Assembly (NCBI GenBank): GCA_028287505.1
Contig: JAQBPN010000041.1
Coordinates: 1-63,805, forward strand
Reading direction: 5' to 3'
DNA from: Fibrobacterota bacterium
GTDB taxonomy: Bacteria; Fibrobacterota; Fibrobacteria; UBA11236
Length of the DNA stretch: 63,805 nt
In this document: piece after piece, positions 42,006-56,314 of the stretch
Layout of the letters: the number at the start of each line of letters is the position of its first letter
How positions within the stretch are numbered: the first letter of the stretch is position 1
The notes under the pieces: model-generated
The model's database searches: none
The model's input: only the letters and a program-made list of their open reading frames with translations
What the model was told of the DNA's origin: nothing
Made by a program: the position numbers and the translations under genes

Positions 42006-42902
42006 ATGGCGGACCAGTTACTTCTAGATCGGCCCGAAGAGACAGCCAAGCAGGCTGAGGCGCACCCTACTCCCACCGCCTTTTCCGTATTCGATTATTT
42101 CGACTATCGTCGCTGCCTCGACGGCTTTTACAAATACCGCAAGTCCTTGAACAGCCGTTTTTCCCATCGGAGTTTCGCGCTCAAGGCGGGATACAAATCC
42201 TCCGGCCTGTTCATCCAATTGGTCAAAGGCAAGCTGAACCTTACCCGGAAGATGCTTCCCGGATTCATCCGCGCCATGGGATTGGGAGGGGCGGAAGGCG
42301 AGTATTTCGGGTTGATGGTGAACTTCACCCATGCCCGGAACGCAGTGGCGCGCCAGCATTGGTTCCAGATGATGATTCCCCTGCTTCCCTCCGCGGCCAA
42401 GACCGTGGCCATGGAACAGAAGAAGTACTATGAAAATTGGTATAACGTGGCGATCCGGGAAGCGCTATCCATCCTCGATATCAGCGATGACTTCGAGGAG
42501 ATCGCCGATTTCATCCAGCCTCCGATTGCCGTCGGCCAGGCTCGCGCTTCCATGGAGTTGCTGGCCGGCCTCGGAATGATCCGTAGGGACCGGAACGGTT
42601 TTTGGCGCGGCACCGATGCCATCCTCGCCTCCTCGCCGGATCTGGGCCCTTTCCTTATCCACTCCTATCAGGGATCGCTGATAGACTTGGGCAAAGAGGC
42701 CCTGCAACGGTATGAAAGGGAGTTGCGCAACGTGGCCTGCCTCACCTTCAGTCTCTCCGAGCAAGGCCATCAAAGGCTGAACCTGAAAGTGGAATCTTTT
42801 TTCAACGACGTGCTGGAACTGGTACGGTCCGATGAAGGCATGGACCGCGTTGGCCAATTGAACATCCAGTACTTTCCGCTCTCAAAGCAAAAGACGCCCT
42901 GA
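42006..42902 (+). CDS. TIGR02147-type regulatory protein
   Basis: A 298-residue protein. The N-terminal block (FSVFDYFDYRRCLDGFYKYR, then F-S-H-R-S-F-A-L-K-A-G-Y, then G-L-F-I-Q-L-V-K-G-K, then F-x-x-L-M-V-N-F-x-H-A) is the hallmark of the Fibrobacter paralogous family TIGR02147, whose N-terminus is HTH-like and which is thought to be regulatory. The C-terminal half (DFEEIADFIQPPI, then G-L-G-M-I-R-R-D) resembles a second winged-helix-like domain. The ribosome-binding site is weak. This gene is one of the strongest taxonomic markers in the window. Its target and signal are unknown. Confidence 0.88.
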   Translation: MADQLLLDRPEETAKQAEAHPTPTAFSVFDYFDYRRCLDGFYKYRKSLNSRFSHRSFALKAGYKSSGLFIQLVKGKLNLTRKMLPGFIRAMGLGGAEGEYFGLMVNFTHARNAVARQHWFQMMIPLLPSAAKTVAMEQKKYYENWYNVAIREALSILDISDDFEEIADFIQPPIAVGQARASMELLAGLGMIRRDRNGFWRGTDAILASSPDLGPFLIHSYQGSLIDLGKEALQRYERELRNVACLTFSLSEQGHQRLNLKVESFFNDVLELVRSDEGMDRVGQLNIQYFPLSKQKTP

Positions 42903-42911
42903 TCCTTGGCC

Positions 42912-44087
42912 TCAGGAATCCGCCTTCATGAGCTCCAGGTTTTTCCGGACCTGGCGCAGGATTTCCAGGTATAGCCGGTAAACGGATTTTTCTTCCGTCG
43001 GTTTGATCCCGTGGAATGCGTTGCCCAGAATGCGGATGGCCAACTCCGCATTTTCCCTGTTCCCGTAGGAATGCACGAGCGCATCCTCTATCGCGTTGTA
43101 GTTGGCGGTGCCCACGCCATTCCCCGCGAATCCGTAAATCGTGGGGATGCGTTCCCAGGTCACGTGCGGTTTCGCCTTGGCCTCGGCCTCGGAAAACAGG
43201 GCGATGAAGAAATCGGTCTCCGCTTCCACTTTCGCGAGCACGGCTTTCGAGTCGGGGAGCAGGTTGTTCCAGATGGGGATCAAAAGCGTGGCGCCCGCTT
43301 CGCCGAAGCATAGCGTATCCCGCAAGCGGTAGGGGTCGTCGGCGAAACATCCGCGGAATTTCCTGCCTTCCAGAACGTTGAGTTCGCGGATCAGGGCCGA
43401 ATAATAGGCGAGGGTTTCAAGATCGTCGGCGGCCGCCCTTTCCACGGGGAAGAACAATCTGGCCCCGGTCTTCCATTTTTGGAGCTTGAGATGAATGCGG
43501 TCGGGCCCCCGCAGGTAACCCAGCAATTCCAGGCGTTGGGCCAGATGCAGGACTTCAGCCGGGGCGAGATCCTGATAATATACTTCATGATGCAATAGCC
43601 CGATTTTGATTTTGGGCCCCCGCATGGAGGGCAGGGCTGCGCCGGCCAGAAAGACAAGGACGCCTTGCGCCACCAAGCCGAAGAGAACGTATTTCCCGGC
43701 GGCCGAGAAGGGTTTCCGCGCGGCGCCGCCGGCCATGAACCGCCGTATTTTCCCCCGCTGGAACACCAGAAGGATCGATTCCAGGATCAGCGGCGGAATA
43801 AGGATCGTATAGCCGAGAAAGGACAATCCGTAGAACCGGAAGCTCAACAAGGCCAGCGCGGCATAATACGCCAGGATGAGGCCGGATCCGAAAAACAGGG
43901 TGTGTCGCGCCTTCACGAATTCGCGGAGTTCCAGGAAATTTTTCTGGACGAGAATCAGGCCGGTAATGGGTCCGCCCAGGCTTGTCGCCAGGGAAATCTG
44001 CAATCCGGAATACAGCGATGCGATCTCGAACGCGGGATCCAGGGATTCCGGATCGATGGATTTCCGGAGAGGCGGGTTGGAATCCAT
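42912..44087 (-). CDS. Uncharacterised four-helix membrane protein with soluble C-terminal domain
   Basis: A 391-residue protein. Four hydrophobic segments occupy residues about 30-160 (ITGLILVQ, LFFGSGLILAYYAALALLSF, G-Y-T-I-L-I-P-P-L-I-L, KYVLFGLVAQGVLVFLAGAA). The remaining 230 residues are soluble and alpha/beta, with no recognisable active site. It ends 9 bases from the convergent TIGR02147 gene and lies 53 bases downstream of ruvB on the same strand, so it may be expressed from the ruv operon. I cannot name a family. Confidence 0.7.
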   Translation of the reverse strand: MDSNPPLRKSIDPESLDPAFEIASLYSGLQISLATSLGGPITGLILVQKNFLELREFVKARHTLFFGSGLILAYYAALALLSFRFYGLSFLGYTILIPPLILESILLVFQRGKIRRFMAGGAARKPFSAAGKYVLFGLVAQGVLVFLAGAALPSMRGPKIKIGLLHHEVYYQDLAPAEVLHLAQRLELLGYLRGPDRIHLKLQKWKTGARLFFPVERAAADDLETLAYYSALIRELNVLEGRKFRGCFADDPYRLRDTLCFGEAGATLLIPIWNNLLPDSKAVLAKVEAETDFFIALFSEAEAKAKPHVTWERIPTIYGFAGNGVGTANYNAIEDALVHSYGNRENAELAIRILGNAFHGIKPTEEKSVYRLYLEILRQVRKNLELMKADS

Positions 44088-44140: not shown

Positions 44141-45166
44141 CTAGAGCAGTTCTTCCTGGGAGGGCGAGGGAGCGGGAGGGATGAGGCCAAGGTGGCGATA
44201 GGCGTTGGCCGTGGCCATGCGACCGCGGGGAGTCCGCTTCAGGAACCCCAGTTGGATGAGATAAGGCTCGTACACCTCTTCCAGGGTTTCCGTCTCTTCG
44301 CCCAGGGAGGCGCCCAGGGTGGACAGGCCCACTGGGCCCCCTTCAAACTTGTTGATGATGGTCTTCAGGATGTTCCGATCCATTTCATCCAGGCCGCGCG
44401 GATCGATGCCGAGCATGTCCAGCGTCTTGGAGACGATGGCCTCGCCCACGACGGTGGTGCCCTTGACCTGGGCCACGTCCCGGCACCGGCGCAGCACGCG
44501 ATTGCCCACGCGCGGCGTCCCGCGGCAGCGGGCGGCCAGCAATTCGGTGCCCTCCGGGGTCAGATCCACCTTGAGGATGCGCGCCGAGCGGTTGAGGATT
44601 TTCTTCATCTCCGCGTCGGAATAGGTTTCCAACCGGAAAGTGATTCCGAAGCGATCCCGCAGGGGAGAGGTGAGCATGCCCGTGCGCGTGGTGGCTCCCA
44701 CCAGGGTGAAGCGTTTGAGCGGCAGGTTGATGCACTTGGCGGACGGGCCCGACTCCAGCATGATATCGATCTTGAAATCCTCCATGGCGGGGTAGAGGAA
44801 CTCCTCGATGACCCGGCTGAGGCGGTGGATTTCGTCGATGAACAACACGTCGTTGCTTTCCAGGTTGGTCAGCAAACCGGCCAGTTCCGAAGGCTTGTCC
44901 AAGGCGGGTCCGGAAGTGATCTTGAGATTGGCCCCCATTTCCTTGGCGATGATATGCGCCAGGGTGGTCTTGCCCAATCCCGGCGGTCCCGCGAAGAGGA
45001 TGTGGTCGATGGGTTCCTTGCGATCGCGCGCGGCCTGCAGGAAGACGCTGAGGCTTTCCTTCAGTTTCTCCTGCCCGATGAAATCGGAGAGCGTGGCGGG
45101 CCGCAGGGACAGGTCCTGGTCCTGATCGTCCCCGAACTGCTCGGGCGCTATGATGCGGTCGGCCAT
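44141..45166 (-). CDS. ruvB: Holliday junction branch-migration ATPase RuvB
   Basis: A 341-residue AAA+ motor of normal length. Visible elements are R-P-A-T-L-S-D-F-I-G-Q, Walker A in FAGPPGLGKTTLAHIIA, Walker B in V-L-F-I-D-E-I-H-R-L, sensor 1 in L-V-G-A-T-T-R, and the C-terminal winged helix with L-G-F-L-K-R-T-P-R-G-R. With RuvA it drives branch migration of Holliday junctions, and RuvC resolves them. It follows ruvA by 9 bases. Confidence 0.98.
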   Translation of the reverse strand: MADRIIAPEQFGDDQDQDLSLRPATLSDFIGQEKLKESLSVFLQAARDRKEPIDHILFAGPPGLGKTTLAHIIAKEMGANLKITSGPALDKPSELAGLLTNLESNDVLFIDEIHRLSRVIEEFLYPAMEDFKIDIMLESGPSAKCINLPLKRFTLVGATTRTGMLTSPLRDRFGITFRLETYSDAEMKKILNRSARILKVDLTPEGTELLAARCRGTPRVGNRVLRRCRDVAQVKGTTVVGEAIVSKTLDMLGIDPRGLDEMDRNILKTIINKFEGGPVGLSTLGASLGEETETLEEVYEPYLIQLGFLKRTPRGRMATANAYRHLGLIPPAPSPSQEELL

Positions 45167-45175
45167 TAGGGTAAA

Positions 45176-45778
45176 CTACACTTCCTGCAAGGCTTGGGTT
45201 ATCAGCTGGCCCGTATTCGCCTTGTCTCCCAGGCGATCCAGGGCCTTCTGTACGGCCGTCTGGGCCGCCGCGTCCTTGACTCCCAAAGTGATCAGGGCCA
45301 TGACCGCGTCGCGGGCCGATTCGCCTCCCGCGTCCAGCACGGCGGGCCTGCCGTCCATGGGGGTCTGCAAATCCATTTTGGAAAGGGAGGTGCGCAGGGA
45401 GGCCACCATCACCTCCGCGGTCTTCTTGCCGATGCCCTTGAGCGCGGTCAGGCCGCGGATATCGCCCCCGATGATCATCTGGGCCAATTGGTGCGGCGGC
45501 ACCGCGGAAAGGATGCGCAAGGCCAGGCGGGGGCCGATGCCGGAGACGCCCAAGAGCTTCAGGAAGATGGTCTTCTCAACGATGTTCTGGAAGCCGTACA
45601 GTTCCAGGCTCTCTTCCCGCACGTGGAGATAGGTGATGAGTTCCACCGTCTCGCCTTCGCGCGGATACAGTTCGGCGGTGCGCAGGGAAACGTCCACGCC
45701 CATGCCTACGCCGCCCACGTCGATGACCAGGCGGGCGGGTTGGCGGTGGGCCAGGCGGCCGCGAAGGAATTCGATCAT
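45176..45778 (-). CDS. ruvA: Holliday junction DNA-binding protein RuvA
   Basis: A 200-residue protein from ATG 45778 (MIEFLRGRLA). The longer upstream frame is not conserved in style. The N-terminal OB fold, the two helix-hairpin-helix motifs (L-L-G-V-S-G-I-G-P-R and L-T-A-L-K-G-I-G-K-K-T-A) and the mobile C-terminal domain that contacts RuvB are all present. It is the first gene of the ruvAB pair. The region directly upstream is a 736-base gap followed by the plus-strand Rhs insert, so its promoter must lie in 45779-46514. Confidence 0.97.
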   Translation of the reverse strand: MIEFLRGRLAHRQPARLVIDVGGVGMGVDVSLRTAELYPREGETVELITYLHVREESLELYGFQNIVEKTIFLKLLGVSGIGPRLALRILSAVPPHQLAQMIIGGDIRGLTALKGIGKKTAEVMVASLRTSLSKMDLQTPMDGRPAVLDAGGESARDAVMALITLGVKDAAAQTAVQKALDRLGDKANTGQLITQALQEV

Positions 45779-46514
45779 ATTCGAAGGTACCCGATTTAGC
45801 GCCCTTGAATGTAGGCGAACCATCCCATAATCTAGAAAAATCGCCGGAAACGGAGGAAAATGGCAGATTCGATGGAGGTGCGAAAGGGAATAACGCATTG
45901 ATTTAGTTAAAGATCGCCAAGTTACTTCCCTTGCCTGAGCTCCCACGTCCGAGTTGAAGAGCTTAACTCAGGAATCCCCATGGCCATCGCTTGCAAATGA
46001 AAGCGACTTCAGGTCGGCGGCCGAATCGGAGATGCTCACCGATCATATCTCAGAAAATTACGTACAAAGTGTACGAAAAAATCCTCACTCGTATTTCAAC
46101 CACCTTGTTGCCTTCCGGGGAGTGAATCGGCGATTCGGATGGCACAATTCGCTAGCCATCAAAATAATGCTTTGTCCGGTCCGGATATTTTCGGAAGTCC
46201 ACGAAATAAAACGCGATGGGGGGATAAGGCCACGCATATCAAGTTCTCCCATGTCCGCTGATGGCATCAATTGAATCAATGATCAAAAAGGGAAGCCTGT
46301 TTTCAACTTCTAACCACCATAAAAATTGGTATGAAACAGGTTTGGAATCCGTGAAGACCGATTCTCTCAATTGAGAAACATTAAATCGGTTTACCTTGAA
46401 AAATGTTTAGCTAGGATTTTGCCAAGTCGCTATTACCGGTTTCAGGCTTCTCCTTTTAATGCCAGGGCGGGTATAAGGAGCCTTTGACAACCATTCGAGA
46501 GAGAAAGGCACGCA
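45779..46514. other. AT-rich intergenic region left of the Rhs unit
   Basis: A 736-base gap of clearly lower GC than the flanks. It must contain the ruvAB promoter (near 45779-45900) and the promoter of the plus-strand 46515 gene. A palindrome CGTACA-AAG-TGTACG lies at 46061-46075. A minus-strand frame of 64 codons (46085-46279), reading NRRFTPRKATRWLKYE at its end, looks like a fragment of a dispersed element rather than a complete gene. No transposase is present. Confidence 0.5.
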
Positions 46515-47606
46515 ATGAGTAAGATGCTGATGCTGGCGGGTTTTATGACCGCCTCCTCCTATGCAGGGCCATGGTCGGACTCTTTGGCCAATGCCATATT
46601 GAGCAAAAATCATCCCCTGCAGCGCCGGCTCGTGGAGTCCCGGCCGGGTCAATGCACAGCCGTCACTGGATTGCAAAGCGTGGCGATGGTCCTGCAATCG
46701 AGGCAGGCGGATACCATGACCCTGCAACTGAGACCGAAGGCCAAAGTGACGGGCCCGTGGTCGGTTCCCGCATTTGAATGGGCCTTGAAACCGGATTTCG
46801 GAGATGCCTGTTATCCGGAATTCGAACATGCCGCTCTCGATTCCACCGCGCCAGAAACTTTCCGGATGGCCGTCCTGAACGTCATGTTGGAGGGCGCAAA
46901 GAAGCTTGGAGCCGTGCCGCCCTCGGCGACCCATTCCGCGATGATGTCGATCCTTTTCTCAAGCGGGACCTCGATGGCACTCAAGGCCTTCGTCTTGCAA
47001 AAATCCGGGAAGATGGCCGAGTCCTCGTACGAACAAGATTTTTCCCCTTTCCTAAGGTCGAATGATTCGACACTCAGGGAGGCGGCCTTCCAGGGTTTGA
47101 TCCGGAAAATCAACGACAACGGGTTTGCGGGCAAGAAGACGGAAAATAAAGCGATATTCACGGCCTTCAAAAAACTCGTTTTGCAACCGATTTCCTTGGG
47201 CCAGGTTGGCGTCCTCGCGACTCTACGCGAGGACTATTCCCGTGATTTCCTGCTGGCGAAATGCGCTGGCGATCGGCAAAAACTGGCGGTGATTTTCATC
47301 CGGGACGGCAATGTCCGGCATGCCGGACTGATCGCTGAAGCTGCGAAACAGCTCCGAGCCGTCGCAAATCCCGCAGCCCTGGAAAAGGCCGTATCCCAAG
47401 GGATCAAGGATCCGGAGGGAACCATTGGCCGATTGCTGGAGGGAAGCCCCGGTGAATTACTGGACGGTCTGACCTTGTTAAGGGTCTTTCCGAAAAATGC
47501 CGCGAGCCATGCCTCGCTCATCATCGAGATGTCCAAGAGTTTCAATCCGGAATTGAATGCGGCGGCGCAAGACCTTCTTCCGTACCTTCCGACGGCTTCC
47601 AAGTAG
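46515..47606 (+). CDS. Exported alpha-helical (HEAT-like) protein upstream of the Rhs gene
   Basis: A 363-residue protein with a short signal peptide (MLMLAGFMTASSYA). The mature protein is mostly helical, with repeats such as DSTLREAAFQGLIRKIND and NPELNAAAQDLLPYLP that resemble HEAT/ARM repeats. It starts at ATG 46515, about 10 bases after an AAAGG, and ends 3 bases before the first ATG of the Rhs gene, so the two are certainly co-transcribed. It may help export, fold or anchor the Rhs protein, as accessory proteins do in other Rhs systems. That role is inference, and no family is recognised. Confidence 0.65.
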   Translation: MSKMLMLAGFMTASSYAGPWSDSLANAILSKNHPLQRRLVESRPGQCTAVTGLQSVAMVLQSRQADTMTLQLRPKAKVTGPWSVPAFEWALKPDFGDACYPEFEHAALDSTAPETFRMAVLNVMLEGAKKLGAVPPSATHSAMMSILFSSGTSMALKAFVLQKSGKMAESSYEQDFSPFLRSNDSTLREAAFQGLIRKINDNGFAGKKTENKAIFTAFKKLVLQPISLGQVGVLATLREDYSRDFLLAKCAGDRQKLAVIFIRDGNVRHAGLIAEAAKQLRAVANPAALEKAVSQGIKDPEGTIGRLLEGSPGELLDGLTLLRVFPKNAASHASLIIEMSKSFNPELNAAAQDLLPYLPTASK

Positions 47607-47615
47607 GAGATGACG

Positions 47616-50600
47616 ATGACAAAGTCGAAAACAATCCTTTCCGTCGTTTTTTGCCTCTGGGTCGTTTTCCTGGCAACCGCCGCAAACGCGGGCAACATTC
47701 TTCTCGTAGTGGATGATGCGGGAATGTGGGCGGGTGATTCGGTGGTCAAAGTATTGGCGGAGGAGCTTGGGCACACGGTCACCGTAGCGACTCCTCCCGT
47801 CACGATTTCCCAAGCCGCCGGAATGGATTTGATTCTTATCTCTTCGACCAACAGTTCCACCCTCGATGATGATTTCAGAACGACTTCCATTCCGGTTCTT
47901 AACTGGAGCCCTTACGACTGGGAAGACATGGCCTTGCTTGAATCGGGCGGTATGTCAAGCGCACCAAGCGAATCTTCGTTAACGATCACTACCCCGACGC
48001 ATGACATGGCTGCGGGGCTGTCCGGTACGGTGCTCGTCCAATCCTGCTGTTCCGACATCGATTTTGCGGAGCCCACGTCATCCGCTCAAATCGCGGCGGT
48101 CCGGCTCGGAGAAGACTCCTCTTATTCGGCCATCTGGGGATACGAGGCTGGCGCGGAGATGGCGTATGGATACCCCGCTCCCGCTCGCCGCGCGGGCACG
48201 TTCATTTATAATGACGGGCCGCTCCTGCTCACTACCGCCGGCCGAAACCTGGTGAAGGCCGCGATAACCTGGACTATGGCGCCCCCGGACACAGGGAGCC
48301 CCACTCCACCGGTGGTGATCATCACCAATCCTTCCCAGGACACCACGGTCAACGCTTCTTCCATCATGATCAGTTTCACCGTGGACGGTTCTCCCGACAG
48401 TCTTTCCTTCGACCTGGTTCCGGGCAACAATGAGCTGATCGTCACCTCCACCAATGGTGCCGGGACGGGCAAGGACACGGTCTACGTGGCGCGCGGCACC
48501 CCGGGTGTGAGCGATCCGACCTGGCCTTCGGGCGCCACCTTGACGGCATCGGATATCAAGCCCTCCAGCCTGAAGCTTGCCTGGAGCGCGGCCAGCGATG
48601 ATTCCGCGGTGGCCTATTATCAAGTGTACGTGAACGGAGCCAAGGTGCTTCGTCTTCCCCCCTCGCCGAGGACCTGCACCATCAGCGGATTGCTGATGAA
48701 TACGACCTATGCCTTCAGCGTGGAGGCCCTGGATCTGCGCGAGAATGTCAGTATCGACGGGCCGATCCGTCACTTTACGACATCGAACGAGTTGCCCGCG
48801 GATCCGGCCACGACCGCCCCCGCTCTCCCGAAAGGAGAGGCTAACGTGGTGGCATATGCATCAGCTTTTCTTTACCACGGGGACGATGCCGTCCAGACCG
48901 GCGTCATTGAAAGCATGATGGATTCGGTTCGTGCCGTCGTCATCCGGGGGGCCGTGGTGAAGGTGAACGGCGATTCGCTGGCTGGAGTAACGGTGGGGGT
49001 GCTGAACCACCCCGAGTTGGGAAGCACGGTGACGCGCGCTGACGGCAAATTCGATCTCGTGGTGAATGGAGGAGGCCAATTGACGCTCCAATATTCAGCT
49101 AAAGAGTATTTGCCGGCACAGAGGGACGTGTTCACGCGATGGCAGGAATACAGTATCATGCCGACTGTGACCTTGATCAAGCTGGACACTACTGTCTCCA
49201 CCATCGCCCTTGCCGATACGGGCGTGATGGCTGCGCGCGCAAGTATAGTGAGCGACGGTGACGGCTCTCGGCAGGCCACTTTGCTGGTTCCGGCCGGCAC
49301 AGGGGTGACTTTCACCCTTCCGAACGGGTCGACGATCAATCCGGATTCCCTCCACATACGCGCCACCGAATACACCGTCGGGGATCATGGGCCCGCCGCT
49401 ATGCCCGGCAGCCTTCCCGGTTCCAGCGCCTATACCTATGCCGTTGAGTTCAATGTGGATGAGGCTGCGGCCCTCGGCGTATCGGACGTCCAGTTCGATC
49501 AGCCCATTTACAGTTATGTGGAAAATTTCATAGGGATGCCTACGGGTTACCCTGTGCCAGTCGGGTACTATGATAAAGCGGCCGGCCATTGGGTGCCCAG
49601 CACCGACGGACGCGTCATCGAGATATCCAGCATCACTTCGGGCAAGGCCAACCTCATCGTGGACACCACAGGCACCCCGGCCACAGATGGGCATTTGGAC
49701 AGCTTGGGCATCACGAATTCCGAACGGGTGCGACTCGCGAATCTGTATTCGGCAAGCCAGACGCTGTGGCGCGTTCCCATCCGGCACTTTTCCTCTTACG
49801 ACTACAATTACCCGTACAGATTGCCGGACGACGCGGCGCCTCCCAAAGCCGAGCCTCCGGAAAAAGACGAAGCCACCGGCAAATGCAACACTGAAACGGG
49901 GTCGATCATCAATTGCCAGAACCAGGCACTGGGCGAGACAGTCCAGTTTCCGGGTTTGCCGACGATGAATTACCGAAGCGATCGAGTCCCGGCTAGGCGC
50001 TGGGGCCGGCTTGAAATCCAAGTCACGGACGCCGCTCTTCCCGCCAGCGTCGACTCCGTCAGGCTTGAAGTCAAAATCGCAGGCCGCAAATTCCAGTTCA
50101 GCTATTCCCCCGCAGACAACATCACCCAGGTTTTCGAATGGGATGGCAAAGATGCGTACGGAAGGACATTGAACGGCAAGCAACCGTATTCCTACAGCAT
50201 CTTCTATGGGTATTCTACGGGAGGGTACTCTCTGCCTCCGGCGCTTTCTTGGCCGGCCGGGGTGGTTTCCCTCAATGGTGCTCCGGCCTCTTTCGCGATG
50301 GCCGGAGCCGGCGCCATCGTGGTTCCGTTAAGAACGACGTATGATTTGAGCGACACCTACACGGGTTATCTGGGTGTCGAGGAAATCAATGATCTGGGGC
50401 CCGGCTGGTCGCTGGCCAACCACCATACCTACGACCCCACTTCGGGCATTTTGCACTTGGGGAACGGGGAAGACAGGGGAGTGGAAAGCGGGCTAGGTGC
50501 AGTCTACACGGTCGCCGGAGGCGGTTCGGATGACGATCCCGACGGCAAGCCCGCAACAAGCGCCTTATTGGGTCAAATCAGTGAAATGGACGTGGGTCCT

Positions 50601-53600
50601 GACGGGACAGTGTACCTTGCGGACAGAGGTGAAGGCTTGGTTTGGAAAATCGGGAGAGATGGGATTATCCATGCCATTGCCTCGGGACAAAATTGGCATG
50701 ACGTCAAAGTGGCTCCGGACGGCTCGCTCTACCTGGCGGATGCGGACCACAGCAGAATCTGGAAATATTCCACTTCCGGCGCGTTGACCGTATTCGCGGG
50801 CAATGGATTCGCCGGATTTTCCGGAGATGGCGGACCGGCAACTTCGGCATCCTTGAATCACGCCACGAACATTGATCTGGGAGCCGATGGCAGCGTTTAT
50901 ATTGTCGATCGAAGCAATTTCAGGATCCGGAAGGTCGCGACCACGGGAATCATCCAGACCATCGCGGGCACAGGCTCTACGAGCTTTAACGGCGACAGCC
51001 TGCCTGCCACCCAAACAAACATGGGCCCGGGATCACTGGCGGTGATGGATGATGGAACGATTTATTTCAGCGACCCGTTTACCGCTCGAATCCGAAAGAT
51101 GGATCCTTCCGGACTGGTTACCACCGTCGCCGGCAATGGGACTTCCGGAACCGCTGGGGATGGAGGACCGGCTTTGGGCGCTCAGACCATCGCCGACCGC
51201 ATCGAGGCGGTCAACAGCAAGGCAGGGGGCACCCTCATATACCTTTCGGACGAAATCAACAACACCATCCGCGTGGTGGATGAAAAAGGAAACCTTTACC
51301 GGTTCGCGGGAGGTGGATTCAATACTGAAACCAACGGCATCCCAGGTACGGAGGCCAATTTCGAAGAAGCCCGGGGCACGGCGGTGGATCCGGCCGGGAA
51401 CTTCTATGTGGGTCGATACGCCGGCGAGGCCGTTACCGCGAGGAAAATCATCGGGAGACTTCCGGACTTTTCCAACCGGGATATTTTCATACCGGACATG
51501 TCAGCGGGAGAAATCTACCAGTTCAGCCCGGCGGGCCGACACTTGAAGACATTCAACGCATTCACGGGCAAAAAATTGCTGGAATTCGGATACGGCGCAA
51601 GCGGACGCTTGACCACGGTTACGGATGCGTACGGCAATGTCACTGAAATTGGGCGCAATCCCGGTGGAGACGCGACTTCCTTAGTCAATCCTTATGGACG
51701 GACGCTGGCCTTGGATCAGGACATTGACGGGAACTTGGCTTCCATCACCTTACCTTCCGGTGAAACCCATGCATTCGCGTACAACGCGGCCGGACTGATG
51801 GATACCTACACGACCCCGAGAGGATTCGACCATGAGTTCACCTACGATACCTTGGGCCGGTTGACGCGCGACGATGACCCATCCGGTGGGTACAAAACTT
51901 TGGCCAAGACCGATACCGCAGGGGGTTGGAAAACGACCTTGGCCACGGCCATGGGCAGGTCGAATGTTTATGAGTTGCTGCCGCAAATCGATCGGTCGAC
52001 TTTGCAACTGAACTTCGATTACGCGGGCCTGGCCACGGTCACCAACTGGGTCGGGAACGGCAGTGTTGTCACTACGAGTCCGGATGGAACCCAATCCACT
52101 GTCTTAAAAGGCCCCGATCCCATTCTCGGATTACAGGCCATGCGACGATCCGGGGGCGAATCCCTGACTCCCTATGGTATTTTTTCGGAGTTCGCAAGTT
52201 CTCAAAAAGCCATCTTGGCCGATTCCACAAACCCGCTGTCCCTGTTTTCCTTTGTGGATAGCACCACGGTCAACGGCAATCTGGCCACTACGCAATACAT
52301 CGATTCGCTCAAACTGTGGATCAGCACATCCGCGGAAGGCCGAAGGGACACCACCTTGGTGGATACGCTGGGAAAAATCATCGAGCGATTCGTTCCAGGC
52401 GCGGCGACGCTGTTTTATGAATACGATGGCCACGGTCGATTGTCCATCCTGACGCAAGGAGAAGGTCCAGATGCCCGGGAGACCCATTTCTTTTACAATG
52501 ATTCCGGATATCTTTCAAAAATGAAGGATCCCTTGAACGATTCCGTGCGATTCGAGTATGATTTGGCGGGGCGGGTCGTCAGGCAAATCCTGGCAGGGGG
52601 ACAGGAGGTCAATTACGCTTATGATGCCGACGGTAATATTGATACCCTTTCGCCGCCTGGGAAGCCCGATCATGTATTCGGCTATACTGAAATCGGATTG
52701 GAAAACCATTATGATCCACCGACGCTGGGCGCTGGCACTTTCGATACGCATACCAGCTACAACCTGGACAAGCAATTGCTCGAAGTAAACCGGCCCGATA
52801 GCAGGGATATCCAATACGCGTATGATAGCGCGGGACGGGTCGACTCTCTTTACACTCCCTTGGGAGCCTATCGCTTTCACTATACTATTGAATCGGGTCT
52901 GCTGGACTTCATGTCGTCTCCCTTTGGCGTCGAAAACGGTTTTGCGTACGATGGGACCATGCCCATTTCCGTTTCCTGGTCAGGACCCGTCACAGGTGCC
53001 ATTGCGTTTGGATATGACGAAAATCATCGACTTAGTGGATTGACGGTCGATGGAACAAGCACATTGGAATTCGGCTATGATGGGGATGGTCTCTTGCTTT
53101 CGGCAGGAACCATGGGATACACTCGGGATACCCATGGACGTCTATCCAAAACCACCCTGGGTGTGGTGGTCGATTCCTTGAGTTACAATGCCTTTGGTGA
53201 ACTTGAAAAAAGTGCATCCATTTCCGATGGAGACACGGTATATCAATGCCGCTATGACCGCGACAAGCTGGGTCGGATCAAGCAGAAAATAGAGACAATC
53301 GCGGGTACTACGCATAGTTATCAATACACCTATGACAGGACCGGACGCTTGATCGAATCTTACCTGGACAGTGTGATTGCTTCGACCTATGCCTACGACA
53401 GCAATGGCAATCGGAGAATAAGAACCCATGCCTCCACCATCGATTCAGGTACGTACGATGATCAGGACCGCATGACCCGGTATGGAAGCAGCACATTCAC
53501 TTATAACCATAATGGCGATTTGCTGAAAAAGATATCCGGGAGCGATACCACCCGTTATAACTATGATGTTTTCGGGAACCTGTTGAGCGTCGTGCTCCCA

Positions 53601-54491
53601 GGAGGTGATTCCGTTTCTTTTCTGGTAGATGGACGCAATCGACGAGTTGTCAAAAAAATGAACGGCGCATTTGTGCAGGGGTTTTTATACCAGAGCCAAC
53701 TGAATCCTGCTGCAATTGTCGACAGTTCCGGAACCATAATGGCACAATTCGTATATGGCTCTCGCTCCAATGTACCGGATCAGATGATCAAGAACGATAC
53801 GGCCTATCAATTCGTTTGTGATCAGCTTGGAAGCCCAAGGCTTATTCTCAATACAGTAACTGGGGTCGTCACACAGAGAATTGATTACGACGAGTTCGGT
53901 AATGTCACATATGATAGTAATCCGGAATTCCAACCATTTGGATTTGCTGGAGGTCTCTATGATGCTTCGATTGCACAGACACGATTTGGGGCAAGAGATT
54001 ATGCTGCGCTTGAGGGCCGATGGACAACCAAAGATCCCGTTAAGTTCTCGGGAGGAAATGCAAATCTCTACGTCTACATATCGAACGACCCGATAAACCG
54101 TATTGATCCTTCTGGATTGAGGCCATTATCCAAATGTGAGAAAAAATCACTCAATCCTTATATTTCGATGGAAGATTTGGAATATGCAGATCTTCATGAT
54201 GGTGAAGTACCTTGGTATTTGATGGATGGTTATACAGGTATAACGAGAGGAAATGATATCTATTTTAGGCCTGGGCAATATGACCCGAGTACACCAGCAG
54301 GGCTTGCTTTGCTTGGCCATGAACTGGTCCATGTTGGTCAATATAAAAATGGAATGAATTGGATTAGTTATTTGTGGTCAACAAAAAAAGGGTACTATCT
54401 AAGCCCATTTGAACAAAAGGCCTATGAAACACAAGATATGATATTTAAAGAATTAACCATTGAAAACGGCGGCTGCAATTGCCAGGACTAA
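47616..54491 (+). CDS. Exported Rhs/YD-repeat polymorphic-toxin-like protein with metallopeptidase-like tip
   Basis: A 2291-residue protein. ATG 47616 is preferred because AGGAG lies 6 bases upstream, whereas the ATG at 47610 is too close to it. A Sec signal peptide (KTILSVVFCLWVVFLATAAN) is followed by a domain of about 200 residues with flavodoxin- or amidotransferase-like strands, then an FnIII module (48520-48785), then a carboxypeptidase-regulatory-like module (48930-49180). NHL-type propeller repeats run from about 50490 to 51450. YD repeats (Y-D-x-x-G-R) run from about 51560 to 53900. The Rhs core (T-R-F-G-A-R-D-Y, then G-R-W-T-T-K-D-P) ends at N-R-I-D-P-S-G-L (54105-54119). The tip of about 125 residues has H-E-L-V-H (54318-54332) in a zinc-peptidase-like context, with a downstream F-E-Q-K-A-Y-E. 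The tip is markedly AT-rich, typical of exchanged toxin ends. Confidence 0.88.
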   Translation: MTKSKTILSVVFCLWVVFLATAANAGNILLVVDDAGMWAGDSVVKVLAEELGHTVTVATPPVTISQAAGMDLILISSTNSSTLDDDFRTTSIPVLNWSPYDWEDMALLESGGMSSAPSESSLTITTPTHDMAAGLSGTVLVQSCCSDIDFAEPTSSAQIAAVRLGEDSSYSAIWGYEAGAEMAYGYPAPARRAGTFIYNDGPLLLTTAGRNLVKAAITWTMAPPDTGSPTPPVVIITNPSQDTTVNASSIMISFTVDGSPDSLSFDLVPGNNELIVTSTNGAGTGKDTVYVARGTPGVSDPTWPSGATLTASDIKPSSLKLAWSAASDDSAVAYYQVYVNGAKVLRLPPSPRTCTISGLLMNTTYAFSVEALDLRENVSIDGPIRHFTTSNELPADPATTAPALPKGEANVVAYASAFLYHGDDAVQTGVIESMMDSVRAVVIRGAVVKVNGDSLAGVTVGVLNHPELGSTVTRADGKFDLVVNGGGQLTLQYSAKEYLPAQRDVFTRWQEYSIMPTVTLIKLDTTVSTIALADTGVMAARASIVSDGDGSRQATLLVPAGTGVTFTLPNGSTINPDSLHIRATEYTVGDHGPAAMPGSLPGSSAYTYAVEFNVDEAAALGVSDVQFDQPIYSYVENFIGMPTGYPVPVGYYDKAAGHWVPSTDGRVIEISSITSGKANLIVDTTGTPATDGHLDSLGITNSERVRLANLYSASQTLWRVPIRHFSSYDYNYPYRLPDDAAPPKAEPPEKDEATGKCNTETGSIINCQNQALGETVQFPGLPTMNYRSDRVPARRWGRLEIQVTDAALPASVDSVRLEVKIAGRKFQFSYSPADNITQVFEWDGKDAYGRTLNGKQPYSYSIFYGYSTGGYSLPPALSWPAGVVSLNGAPASFAMAGAGAIVVPLRTTYDLSDTYTGYLGVEEINDLGPGWSLANHHTYDPTSGILHLGNGEDRGVESGLGAVYTVAGGGSDDDPDGKPATSALLGQISEMDVGPDGTVYLADRGEGLVWKIGRDGIIHAIASGQNWHDVKVAPDGSLYLADADHSRIWKYSTSGALTVFAGNGFAGFSGDGGPATSASLNHATNIDLGADGSVYIVDRSNFRIRKVATTGIIQTIAGTGSTSFNGDSLPATQTNMGPGSLAVMDDGTIYFSDPFTARIRKMDPSGLVTTVAGNGTSGTAGDGGPALGAQTIADRIEAVNSKAGGTLIYLSDEINNTIRVVDEKGNLYRFAGGGFNTETNGIPGTEANFEEARGTAVDPAGNFYVGRYAGEAVTARKIIGRLPDFSNRDIFIPDMSAGEIYQFSPAGRHLKTFNAFTGKKLLEFGYGASGRLTTVTDAYGNVTEIGRNPGGDATSLVNPYGRTLALDQDIDGNLASITLPSGETHAFAYNAAGLMDTYTTPRGFDHEFTYDTLGRLTRDDDPSGGYKTLAKTDTAGGWKTTLATAMGRSNVYELLPQIDRSTLQLNFDYAGLATVTNWVGNGSVVTTSPDGTQSTVLKGPDPILGLQAMRRSGGESLTPYGIFSEFASSQKAILADSTNPLSLFSFVDSTTVNGNLATTQYIDSLKLWISTSAEGRRDTTLVDTLGKIIERFVPGAATLFYEYDGHGRLSILTQGEGPDARETHFFYNDSGYLSKMKDPLNDSVRFEYDLAGRVVRQILAGGQEVNYAYDADGNIDTLSPPGKPDHVFGYTEIGLENHYDPPTLGAGTFDTHTSYNLDKQLLEVNRPDSRDIQYAYDSAGRVDSLYTPLGAYRFHYTIESGLLDFMSSPFGVENGFAYDGTMPISVSWSGPVTGAIAFGYDENHRLSGLTVDGTSTLEFGYDGDGLLLSAGTMGYTRDTHGRLSKTTLGVVVDSLSYNAFGELEKSASISDGDTVYQCRYDRDKLGRIKQKIETIAGTTHSYQYTYDRTGRLIESYLDSVIASTYAYDSNGNRRIRTHASTIDSGTYDDQDRMTRYGSSTFTYNHNGDLLKKISGSDTTRYNYDVFGNLLSVVLPGGDSVSFLVDGRNRRVVKKMNGAFVQGFLYQSQLNPAAIVDSSGTIMAQFVYGSRSNVPDQMIKNDTAYQFVCDQLGSPRLILNTVTGVVTQRIDYDEFGNVTYDSNPEFQPFGFAGGLYDASIAQTRFGARDYAALEGRWTTKDPVKFSGGNANLYVYISNDPINRIDPSGLRPLSKCEKKSLNPYISMEDLEYADLHDGEVPWYLMDGYTGITRGNDIYFRPGQYDPSTPAGLALLGHELVHVGQYKNGMNWISYLWSTKKGYYLSPFEQKAYETQDMIFKELTIENGGCNCQD

Positions 54492-54982
54492 ATCAGAAGT
54501 TCGGACAAACTGGGACTTTAGCTGGGATAATTTTATTTATCGCGGTTGGATGCAGCGGTGGCTCTGGAAAAGTCAGAGGAACGTATTGCTCTGATGTTAA
54601 TAAAAAGTATTTCCGAAAATCTGTTGGGGAAACCTATTCGGAATTTGAAAAATTTGATATCGAAACGCAATACGCTATTTACATTTGCGGGAATCAATAC
54701 ATTGAACCCCCACTTATGCAGTTCGGTTTGAAGTTCGCTTTAGAAGGGGAGCATGTGGTTGGGTATCTTACCGCCAGGCTAGAAGAAACGGAGAGCGAAC
54801 CCACGATAAGAGATATTATTTCTGTGTTTCGTTGGATGACCATTAAAAAGACCTACGATGTAGCGGGAAATACGAATTTAATGAAAATAATGGAGTCTAA
54901 GAAAAACCAAATAAAAGAGCCGATGTGGAGAAGTTTTGTTGAAAAAGAACTGAGTGAAATTAAGAAACAGGCAACAAATTAA
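54479..54982 (+). CDS. Small lipoprotein, candidate immunity protein for the Rhs tip
   Basis: A 167-residue protein. The best start is TTG 54479, which overlaps the end of the Rhs gene by 13 bases, and it gives a lipoprotein signal ending in FIAVGC. The mature part is mixed helix and strand with no recognisable fold. Its base composition is as AT-rich as the Rhs tip and unlike the rest of the window, as expected if toxin tip and immunity gene moved together. A lipoprotein would protect the periplasm or the outer-membrane face. The immunity role is inferred only from position, size and composition. Confidence 0.6.
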   Translation: MPGLNQKFGQTGTLAGIILFIAVGCSGGSGKVRGTYCSDVNKKYFRKSVGETYSEFEKFDIETQYAIYICGNQYIEPPLMQFGLKFALEGEHVVGYLTARLEETESEPTIRDIISVFRWMTIKKTYDVAGNTNLMKIMESKKNQIKEPMWRSFVEKELSEIKKQATN

Positions 54983-55094
54983 TCATGTTTTAAGGGACCT
55001 TGCCCATAAACCCGTTTCCGCCTTCAACGGCAGTCAGTTGCTCACAAAGTCGCGAATGTTATAGTCTACTTGATCGGTTCTGAAAGGTGGGGGA

Positions 55095-55574
55095 TTAGGC
55101 CGGTTTCCCCGCCTGGATCAAATGACAAAACGCAATCGCCAACGCATCCGCCGCATCGGCCGGAGTCGGCGGTTGCTTCAACCCGAGATGGGTCTGGATC
55201 ATTTCCGCCACGCGTTCCTTGCTGGCCCTCCCCGTGCCCACCGTGGCTTTCTTCACCATCTGGGGGGCGTATTCGGAAACCGGAATCCCCATGGATTGGG
55301 CGGCCACCATGATGGCTCCGCGGGCGTGGCCCAGGATCAGAGCGGACTGGGGGAATTTGGCGAAGAAGATGTTTTCCAGCGCAAGGTGAACCGGAGTATA
55401 GACGACCATCAGGGCCATCAGCTCCCGGTGGATTTGCCCCAGGCGCAAGGGCAGGGGGTCGGAGCTCTTGCAGCGGATGACTCCGTATTCCAGGACGCGG
55501 ATGCGGCCGCTCCGGCTTTCCAGAAAGGCATACCCGGTGCGGTGGGTGCCGGGGTCGACCCCGATGACGATCAA
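55095..55574 (-). CDS. ruvC: Crossover junction endodeoxyribonuclease RuvC
   Basis: A 159-residue Holliday junction resolvase of the RNase H fold. Catalytic acids are visible: Asp7 in I-G-V-D-P-G, Glu67 in A-L-E-N-I-F-F, and the Asp140/Asp143 pair in P-A-D-A-A-D-A. The substrate-contacting F-F-A-K-F-P-Q-S segment is intact. Its ATG overlaps the stop codon of yebC, so the two are translationally coupled. Downstream, where ruvA would normally follow, is the Rhs block. Confidence 0.97.
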   Translation of the reverse strand: MIVIGVDPGTHRTGYAFLESRSGRIRVLEYGVIRCKSSDPLPLRLGQIHRELMALMVVYTPVHLALENIFFAKFPQSALILGHARGAIMVAAQSMGIPVSEYAPQMVKKATVGTGRASKERVAEMIQTHLGLKQPPTPADAADALAIAFCHLIQAGKPA

Positions 55575-56314
55575 AGGTTTTCCAGCTCCTTCTGATCGAA
55601 TTCCGCGTTGGTGTGCACGTTCTGCACGTCGTCCTGTTCGTCCAGCGCTTCCAGGATCCTGAGAACCTTCTCCGCGTCGTCGCCGGTCACCTTCACCATG
55701 TTGTCGGCGATCTTGACCACTTCCGAGGTGATGGGCTTGAGCCCCTTCTTCTCCAGGGCTGCCAGCATGGAATGGAAATGCTCGGGCTCGACCTTGATCT
55801 CGTATTCCGTGCCGGAGGAATCGAGATCCTCCGCGCCGTTTTCGGTGACGAACTCGAAAAGGAAATCCTCGCCGATAGCGTCTTTGGCCAGAGTGATGAT
55901 GCCCTTGGATTTGAACATCCAGGCCACCGATCCGGCTTCGCCCATGTTGCCGCCGTTCTTGCTGAAGATGTGGCGCATCTCGGCCACCGTGCGGACCTTG
56001 TTGTCCGTCATGGTATCCACCATGATGGCGGTGCCGGCGGGACCGTAGCCCTCATAGGTGAGTTCCAGATAGGTGACCCCTTCGAGCTCGCCCGCGCCCT
56101 TGGCGATGGCGGTTTCGATGTTCTTGTTGGGCATGTTGGAGCCCTTGGCCTTGAGGATCGACGCGCGCAAGCGCGGGTTGCCTTCCGGATCGGATCCACC
56201 CATGCGCGCCGCCACGGTGATTTCGCGGAGGATGCGGTTGAAGACCTTGGCTCGTGCCCCATCGATTCTGGCTTTTTTACGCTTGGTGGTTGCCCATTTT
56301 GAGTGGCCGGACAT
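55571..56314 (-). CDS. yebC: YebC/TACO1 family regulator
   Basis: A 247-residue protein of the conserved family that starts MSGHSKWATTKRKKARIDGA. Members act as transcriptional regulators or as ribosome-associated factors that help translate polyproline stretches. The signature G-S-V-A-W-M-F and the acidic C-terminal segment with L-D-E-Q-D-D-V-Q-N-V-H-T-N are present. GGAG lies about 8 bases before ATG 56314. It is coupled to ruvC by a 4-base overlap. Confidence 0.97.
   Translation of the reverse strand: MSGHSKWATTKRKKARIDGARAKVFNRILREITVAARMGGSDPEGNPRLRASILKAKGSNMPNKNIETAIAKGAGELEGVTYLELTYEGYGPAGTAIMVDTMTDNKVRTVAEMRHIFSKNGGNMGEAGSVAWMFKSKGIITLAKDAIGEDFLFEFVTENGAEDLDSSGTEYEIKVEPEHFHSMLAALEKKGLKPITSEVVKIADNMVKVTGDDAEKVLRILEALDEQDDVQNVHTNAEFDQKELENL

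Follow-up and report, generated by a model that had tools for sequence, protein, structure and literature searches.

Between ruvC and ruvA of an uncultured Fibrobacterota bacterium lies a block of 9,316 nucleotides (nt; positions 45779-55094) that our analysis suggests is a polymorphic-toxin locus of the teneurin-like protein (TLP) class, sitting in a gap that was already open and most likely having replaced an earlier, scramblase-like gene there. Positions refer to the window, by which we mean the whole 63,805-nt stretch analysed; it is contig C93 of a 6.07-Mb metagenome-assembled genome (MAG) of 130 contigs, here termed G000. The block runs from the ruvA start codon (45778) to the ruvC stop (55095) and holds three plus-strand genes: gene 1 (46515-47606, 363 amino acids (aa)), gene 2 (47610-54491, 2293 aa, of the Rhs/YD type) and gene 3 (54479-54982, 167 aa). 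The original prediction, made from the letters of the sequence, had described an Rhs-type polymorphic-toxin locus of three plus-strand genes with AT-rich flanks that separates yebC-ruvC from ruvA-ruvB, and this description holds. It had also seen here a clean case of a toxin locus placed inside a recombination-repair operon. That the operon was intact when the block came in is a claim that we do not retain, because the gap is already open, and occupied by a scramblase-like gene, in the two species G002 and G004, with the window genome inside their clade. Most simply, one piece of accessory cargo was exchanged for another here, and the operon was not freshly broken.

The ruvC-ruvA gap and its probable earlier occupant

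For this order, contiguity of ruvC and ruvA is ancestral and the split is derived. The gap between the two genes measures about 17-120 nt in three of the five congeners compared (G001, G003 and G005, out of G001-G005), in G006-G009, which belong to the sister genus in the same family, and in G010 of the same order; contiguous, block-free yebC-ruvC-ruvA-ruvB, for which the original prediction had proposed to look, thus exists at all three levels. A RuvC scan across many phyla returned 80 genome contigs, of which 50 had ruvA on the same stretch; in 48 of the 50 the gap was no larger than 391 nt, and the remaining two, with gaps of 858 and 784 nt, are the G002 and G004 records. Contiguity is nevertheless no rule for bacteria or for this phylum: family f3, in the same class, has ruvC and ruvA at unlinked positions (in G036, for instance, a single contig has about 1 Mb between them), and of 78 genomes surveyed just 45 keep ruvA, ruvB and ruvC in one place, their separation being common in bacteria (PMC1193525). 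We therefore confine the claim of ancestral contiguity to the order. The insertion was to be refuted, according to the original prediction, if ruvC and ruvA were normally apart in the phylum; this is so in family f3, but not in the order to which the window belongs. The present case resembles those unlinked or interrupted ruv genes (PMC1193525) in that the ruv genes are apart, yet differs from them in that the order of ruvC and ruvA is kept, only accessory cargo lies between them, and this cargo differs between sister species. Among the papers searched, none was found to report cargo between ruvC and ruvAB.

The named relatives with the nearest RuvC sequences are MAGs of Fibrobacterota. G002 and G004 are the species closest to the window genome (RuvC identity of 86% and 84%). 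Each carries in its gap a single plus-strand gene of about 196 aa that matches the Pfam family Scramblase (PF03803), the two products being 68% identical. In these two Fibrobacterota species it is a bacterial scramblase/LURP-one-like gene, located at L032:12091-12678 and L034:11816-12400. No such gene was found in the window genome or in any other genome of the family that was searched, and tblastn of the window revealed no remnant of one. A tree of 10 flanking proteins places G000 and G002 as sisters with an ultrafast bootstrap (UFBoot) of 100 and G004 outside them, and a tree of the four Ruv/YebC proteins returns the same G000-G002 grouping (UFBoot 96, FastTree 0.97). Since the orthologous gene sits in the gaps of G002 and G004, and G000 is nested among them without it, replacement is favoured: on the simplest history, the scramblase-like gene would have entered the gap in the common ancestor of G000, G002 and G004, and the toxin block would later have replaced it in the lineage of the window. 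The original prediction had also named, as a refutation, relatives that are all split by different, unrelated content; this describes the two nearest relatives but not the rest of the order. Two considerations weigh against our reading at this point. Replacement is an argument from parsimony, and loss of the scramblase-like gene followed by a later insertion would fit equally well; and the window is a contig of a MAG.

A different history appears unlikely to us, namely that this lineage acquired the Rhs block by direct insertion into an uninterrupted yebC-ruvC-ruvA-ruvB operon, with no connection to the scramblase-like gene in its sister species. It would suit the contiguous operons of the genus, family and order and the exactly intergenic junctions, but it needs an extra independent event, given that G000 is nested with the two carriers of the scramblase-like gene. 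Nor do repeats or mobility genes speak for it. The junctions share no repeat longer than 7 nt, so that the target-site duplication for which the original prediction suggested aligning them was not found; they show no inverted or terminal repeats, the open reading frames of the block include no recombinase or mobility gene, and the left flank has no repeat copies elsewhere in the genome. Of the marks of a mobile element, then, an empty site is present in the relatives G001, G003 and G005-G010, the two nearest species holding other cargo, while no target-site duplication, terminal repeat or recombinase was found.

Comparison by blastn with G001-G005 shows DNA similarity ending at window position 45778, the first codon of ruvA, and on the other side at about the ruvC stop; the block is thus strictly intergenic. 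Neither the left intergenic stretch (45779-46514, 46% GC), which is single-copy in the genome, nor the right one (54983-55094, 48% GC) has an alignable counterpart in relatives. Homology of the intergenic flanks to those of relatives does not rise above that of shuffled sequences, even between G002 and G004, and the breakpoints can therefore not be placed to the base. The flanking genes have the minus strand and the coordinates given in the original prediction, according to open reading frames together with Pfam and NCBIfam profiles: ruvB (44141-45166; NF000868/TIGR00635, above cut-off), ruvA (45176-45778; TIGR00084, 173 bits) and ruvC (55095-55574; PF02075, 154.6 bits) are intact, and ruvC overlaps yebC (55571-56314; TIGR01033, 293.6 bits) by 4 nt. 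Most neighbouring genes have about 60-65% GC, and GC is low at the edges of the block, including the C-terminal tip of gene 2 (38%) and gene 3 (39%). At third codon positions, GC (GC3) is 0.80-0.85 in the ruv genes and yebC, 0.67 in gene 1 and 0.32 in the tip.

Such a composition, unlike that of the neighbours, together with repeat-rich Rhs genes in a MAG of 130 contigs, might raise the suspicion that assembly or binning had fused an Rhs-bearing contig of other origin to the ruv locus. We consider this very improbable. Both joins fall exactly between intact genes on one contig of 63.8 kb, gene 1 with the N-terminus of the TLP has a second copy elsewhere in the same genome (72% identical for gene 1), and the two nearest relatives carry extra cargo at exactly the same gap.

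Just downstream of ruvB, at 42006-44087, lie two genes of 391 and 298 aa, the former with no Pfam match, that are little conserved between congeners, which indicates that variability extends to the left side of the ruv locus.

The teneurin-like protein, its tip and gene 3

On the evidence of Pfam profiles and of phmmer comparison with solved TLPs, gene 2 is a bacterial TLP, a recently described class of polymorphic toxin. A single frame contains, in the order of teneurins, matches to a TTR-like domain (aa 438-522, 48921-49175; PF25020, E 7e-25), the FN-plug, an NHL beta-propeller (TEN_NHL; about aa 1030-1250, 50697-51359; PF25021, PF01436) and the TEN_YD-shell (about aa 1278-2165, 51441-54104; PF25023, TIGR03696). 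The Pfam match to the FN-plug alone is weak (E 3e-4); by phmmer, the FN-plug, NHL and YD-shell stretches score 507, 137 and 423 bits against the solved protein (9pt5). The best solved relatives of the whole are the teneurin-like proteins 9pt5 (1112 bits) and 9ifo (1103 bits), with animal teneurins at about 250 bits and the Rhs proteins of the type VI secretion system (T6SS) likewise far below.

The TLP of Bacillus inaquosorum (BiTLP; 9ifo, 9pt5) undergoes two self-cleavages (PMC13018210). One, close to C719, splits G723/S724 of the FN-plug; the other, which involves R2103, D2116 and D2140, falls where the shell ends, and the tip stays enclosed. The aligned PDB chain is numbered as in that publication. 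In gene 2 the segment C759-N-T-E-T-G764/S765 (49884-49904) aligns with C719 and G723/S724, and R2129, D2142 and D2166, the last in a DPSG motif (53994-54119), are spaced by 13 and 24 residues exactly as in BiTLP, so that a cut after about L2170 is predicted. It would separate off a putative toxin tip of 123 aa (aa 2171-2293, 54120-54491), in the place where TLPs carry a polymorphic toxin of about 15 kDa followed by an immunity gene; here the next gene overlaps. GC3 starts at about 0.7 in the TLP gene and declines to 0.32 in its tip, a pattern expected if tips are exchanged separately.

The tip matches PF13699, a domain of the DUF4157/eCIS_core type, with E 3e-12 and 46.8 bits (cut-off 22) over profile positions 40-78 of 79, and contains the HExxH motif HELVH at H2237-H2241, with E2268 downstream. 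Gene 3 starts at a TTG that overlaps the stop of the TLP gene, and its product, a putative immunity lipoprotein, has a hydrophobic N-terminus ending in AVGC-SGG; it matched no family and had no convincing homolog in 168 genomes of the phylum. Almost all TLPs have a gene directly downstream, demonstrated in one case to be an immunity gene, and several TLP tips proved toxic when tested (PMC13018210). The nearest parallel with known activity is the C-terminal metallopeptidase domain of VgrG2b, also reported to be a DUF4157: it is toxic in the periplasm, and the immunity proteins that counter it are lipoproteins or reside in the periplasm (PMC6899460). The Tpe1-Tpi1 pairs of that report share with our locus a small HExxH DUF4157 domain and, directly downstream, an envelope-targeted, in part lipoprotein, immunity gene, which in the window is putative; they differ in that the VgrG2b domain is carried by a T6SS VgrG spike and the window tip by a TLP shell, and no direct sequence match between the tips was found. 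Neither the tip alone nor its profile retrieved a VgrG2b chain from the PDB, and we therefore use the parallel as an analogy only. Relatives of the tip in the phylum are DUF4157 proteins built differently, and the stretches that were read showed no evident Rhs/YD carrier.

With BiTLP (PMC13018210) the window protein shares the domain order, the residues of both cut sites, a tip of about 14 kDa and a small, diverse downstream gene. It differs from BiTLP in belonging to Fibrobacterota, in having an FN3 domain and an unassigned domain at the N-terminus instead of the Ig-like domains of the Bacillus protein, and in its apparent signal for signal peptidase I, its DUF4157-type tip, the extra gene 1 upstream and its location in a ruv cluster. 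From the wider group of Rhs/YD toxins (T6SS Rhs effectors, WapA, TcC), with which it has in common the YD-repeat shell, Rhs_assc_core, the DPxG motif and a probably exchangeable, low-GC tip followed by a putative immunity gene, it is set apart by the teneurin-specific NHL propeller, TTR and FN-plug, and no PAAR or VgrG part was found in it.

Some observations count against a toxin of this kind. Most TLPs published from Gram-negative bacteria are predicted to be lipoproteins; the window protein instead resembles a substrate of signal peptidase I. Its signal peptide and the lipobox of the gene 3 product were judged by eye. A single-sequence structure model of the tip reaches a predicted local distance difference test (pLDDT) score of 35, and searches with the tip gave no convincing match in the PDB. 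One may ask, then, whether gene 2 is a weapon at all, or rather a surface adhesion or matrix protein with a C-terminal processing peptidase and, in gene 3, a partner lipoprotein. Animal teneurins do act as adhesion receptors, the window protein has an FN3 domain at its N-terminus, and DUF4157 in loci of extracellular contractile injection systems (eCIS) may serve maturation or loading instead of toxicity (PMC8213781). However, both autocleavage sites are conserved, the AT-rich tip and the downstream gene are lineage-specific, which fits an exchangeable toxin-immunity pair, and toxicity has been seen with several TLP tips (PMC13018210). We regard the adhesion role as a minority possibility, to be set at about one chance in five, and continue to read gene 2 as a probable toxin.

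The published survey of TLPs listed six phyla, and Fibrobacterota was not among them (PMC13018210). TEN_NHL matches occur in 9 of the 168 genomes of the phylum and in none of the congeners of the window genome; G124:C15:96091-97023, with several such matches in a 2718-aa frame, is part of a probable further teneurin-like protein. The single long relative of the TLP superfold found in a search of plasmids is on a linear plasmid of Streptomyces sp. NBC_01450 (L203:3001-8292; 35% identity over 77% of the window protein). This plasmid, of 2.35 Mb, is classed as mobilizable, and the teneurin-like stretch lies outside its listed annotation. The window genome itself is rich in Rhs-type proteins: it contains eight regions with Rhs_assc_core, spread over eight contigs, and their frames measure 1192-3331 aa.

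Gene 1 and a second locus in the same genome

Gene 1 belongs to no known family and is a predicted exported helical-repeat protein. Its N-terminus resembles a signal peptide, and AlphaFold, given two sequences, models it as an all-helical, ARM/HEAT-like repeat with a pLDDT of 58, a model in which we place medium confidence; matches to ARM/HEAT-type solenoids in a fold search were weak, none falling below E 0.001. Gene 1 had no homolog in the other 120 genomes of the class that were searched and no match in a plasmid search, and PDB sequences gave nothing convincing for it or for the N-terminal domain of the TLP. Its sole paralog, 72% identical, lies in the same genome at G000:C69:12138-13253, where it again directly precedes a giant Rhs-type gene, a frame of 3331 aa. 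The N-terminal part of the TLP (aa 1-299, 47610-48506), comprising an apparent Sec signal peptide and an N-terminal domain, is 57% identical to that frame over aa 2-299, and the similarity goes no further: beyond its N-terminus the C69 frame has FG-GAP, Ig, DUF6531 and RHS repeats where the TLP has teneurin domains. At the DNA level identity is 79% over window positions 46695-47948, running through gene 1 into the TLP N-terminus. As a guide to the ends of an element the C69 locus is of no help, homology being limited to gene 1 and the TLP N-terminus and excluding the outer flanks. The C69 locus (L051, G000:C69:11187-23255) is preceded, at a distance of about 0.9 kb, by a tRNA-Lys gene whose anticodon, identified by eye, is CTT; such surroundings are typical of integration.

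The recurrence of gene 1 with the TLP N-terminus at this level of DNA identity suggests a 5' module made up of an exported partner and a display domain. We put forward, tentatively and as the less probable view, that gene 1 together with the TLP N-terminus (roughly 300 residues) makes up a portable delivery unit at the 5' end, its exported helical-repeat protein being dedicated to the display of proteins that begin in this way; that this unit has been joined within one genome to two unrelated Rhs bodies, the teneurin-like shell of the window and the FG-GAP/DUF6531 Rhs protein of C69; and that the ruvC-ruvA gap of this clade is a recurrent site for cargo.

A possible mode of action and what the locus may mean

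Taking these features together, the TLP would be exported by Sec, its YD-shell closed by the FN-plug, and would cut itself at G764/S765 and after DPSG, at about residue 2170, leaving the metallopeptidase-like tip of 14 kDa inside the shell. Contact with a competitor may then release the tip to act as a zinc-peptidase toxin of the envelope or periplasm, while the lipoprotein-like product of gene 3 would protect the producer at the same place. The product of gene 1 probably helps in the surface display of such N-termini. As for the host genes, ruvAB would now be severed from the yebC-ruvC transcript and would have to possess a promoter of its own.

Three sister species thus appear to show a gap that first opened when a single gene entered it and was later taken over by a large toxin locus, and the lesson is one of caution before such loci are called direct insertions into operons. 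With this locus, Fibrobacterota would join the phyla in which full-length teneurin-like proteins occur, and the metallopeptidase-type tip with its lipoprotein-like partner offers a TLP pair that is directly testable. It also pairs a TLP with an upstream gene, gene 1, of which we found no description; if the proposed 5' module is real, bacterial TLPs could exchange not just the toxin tip but also the module for surface display.
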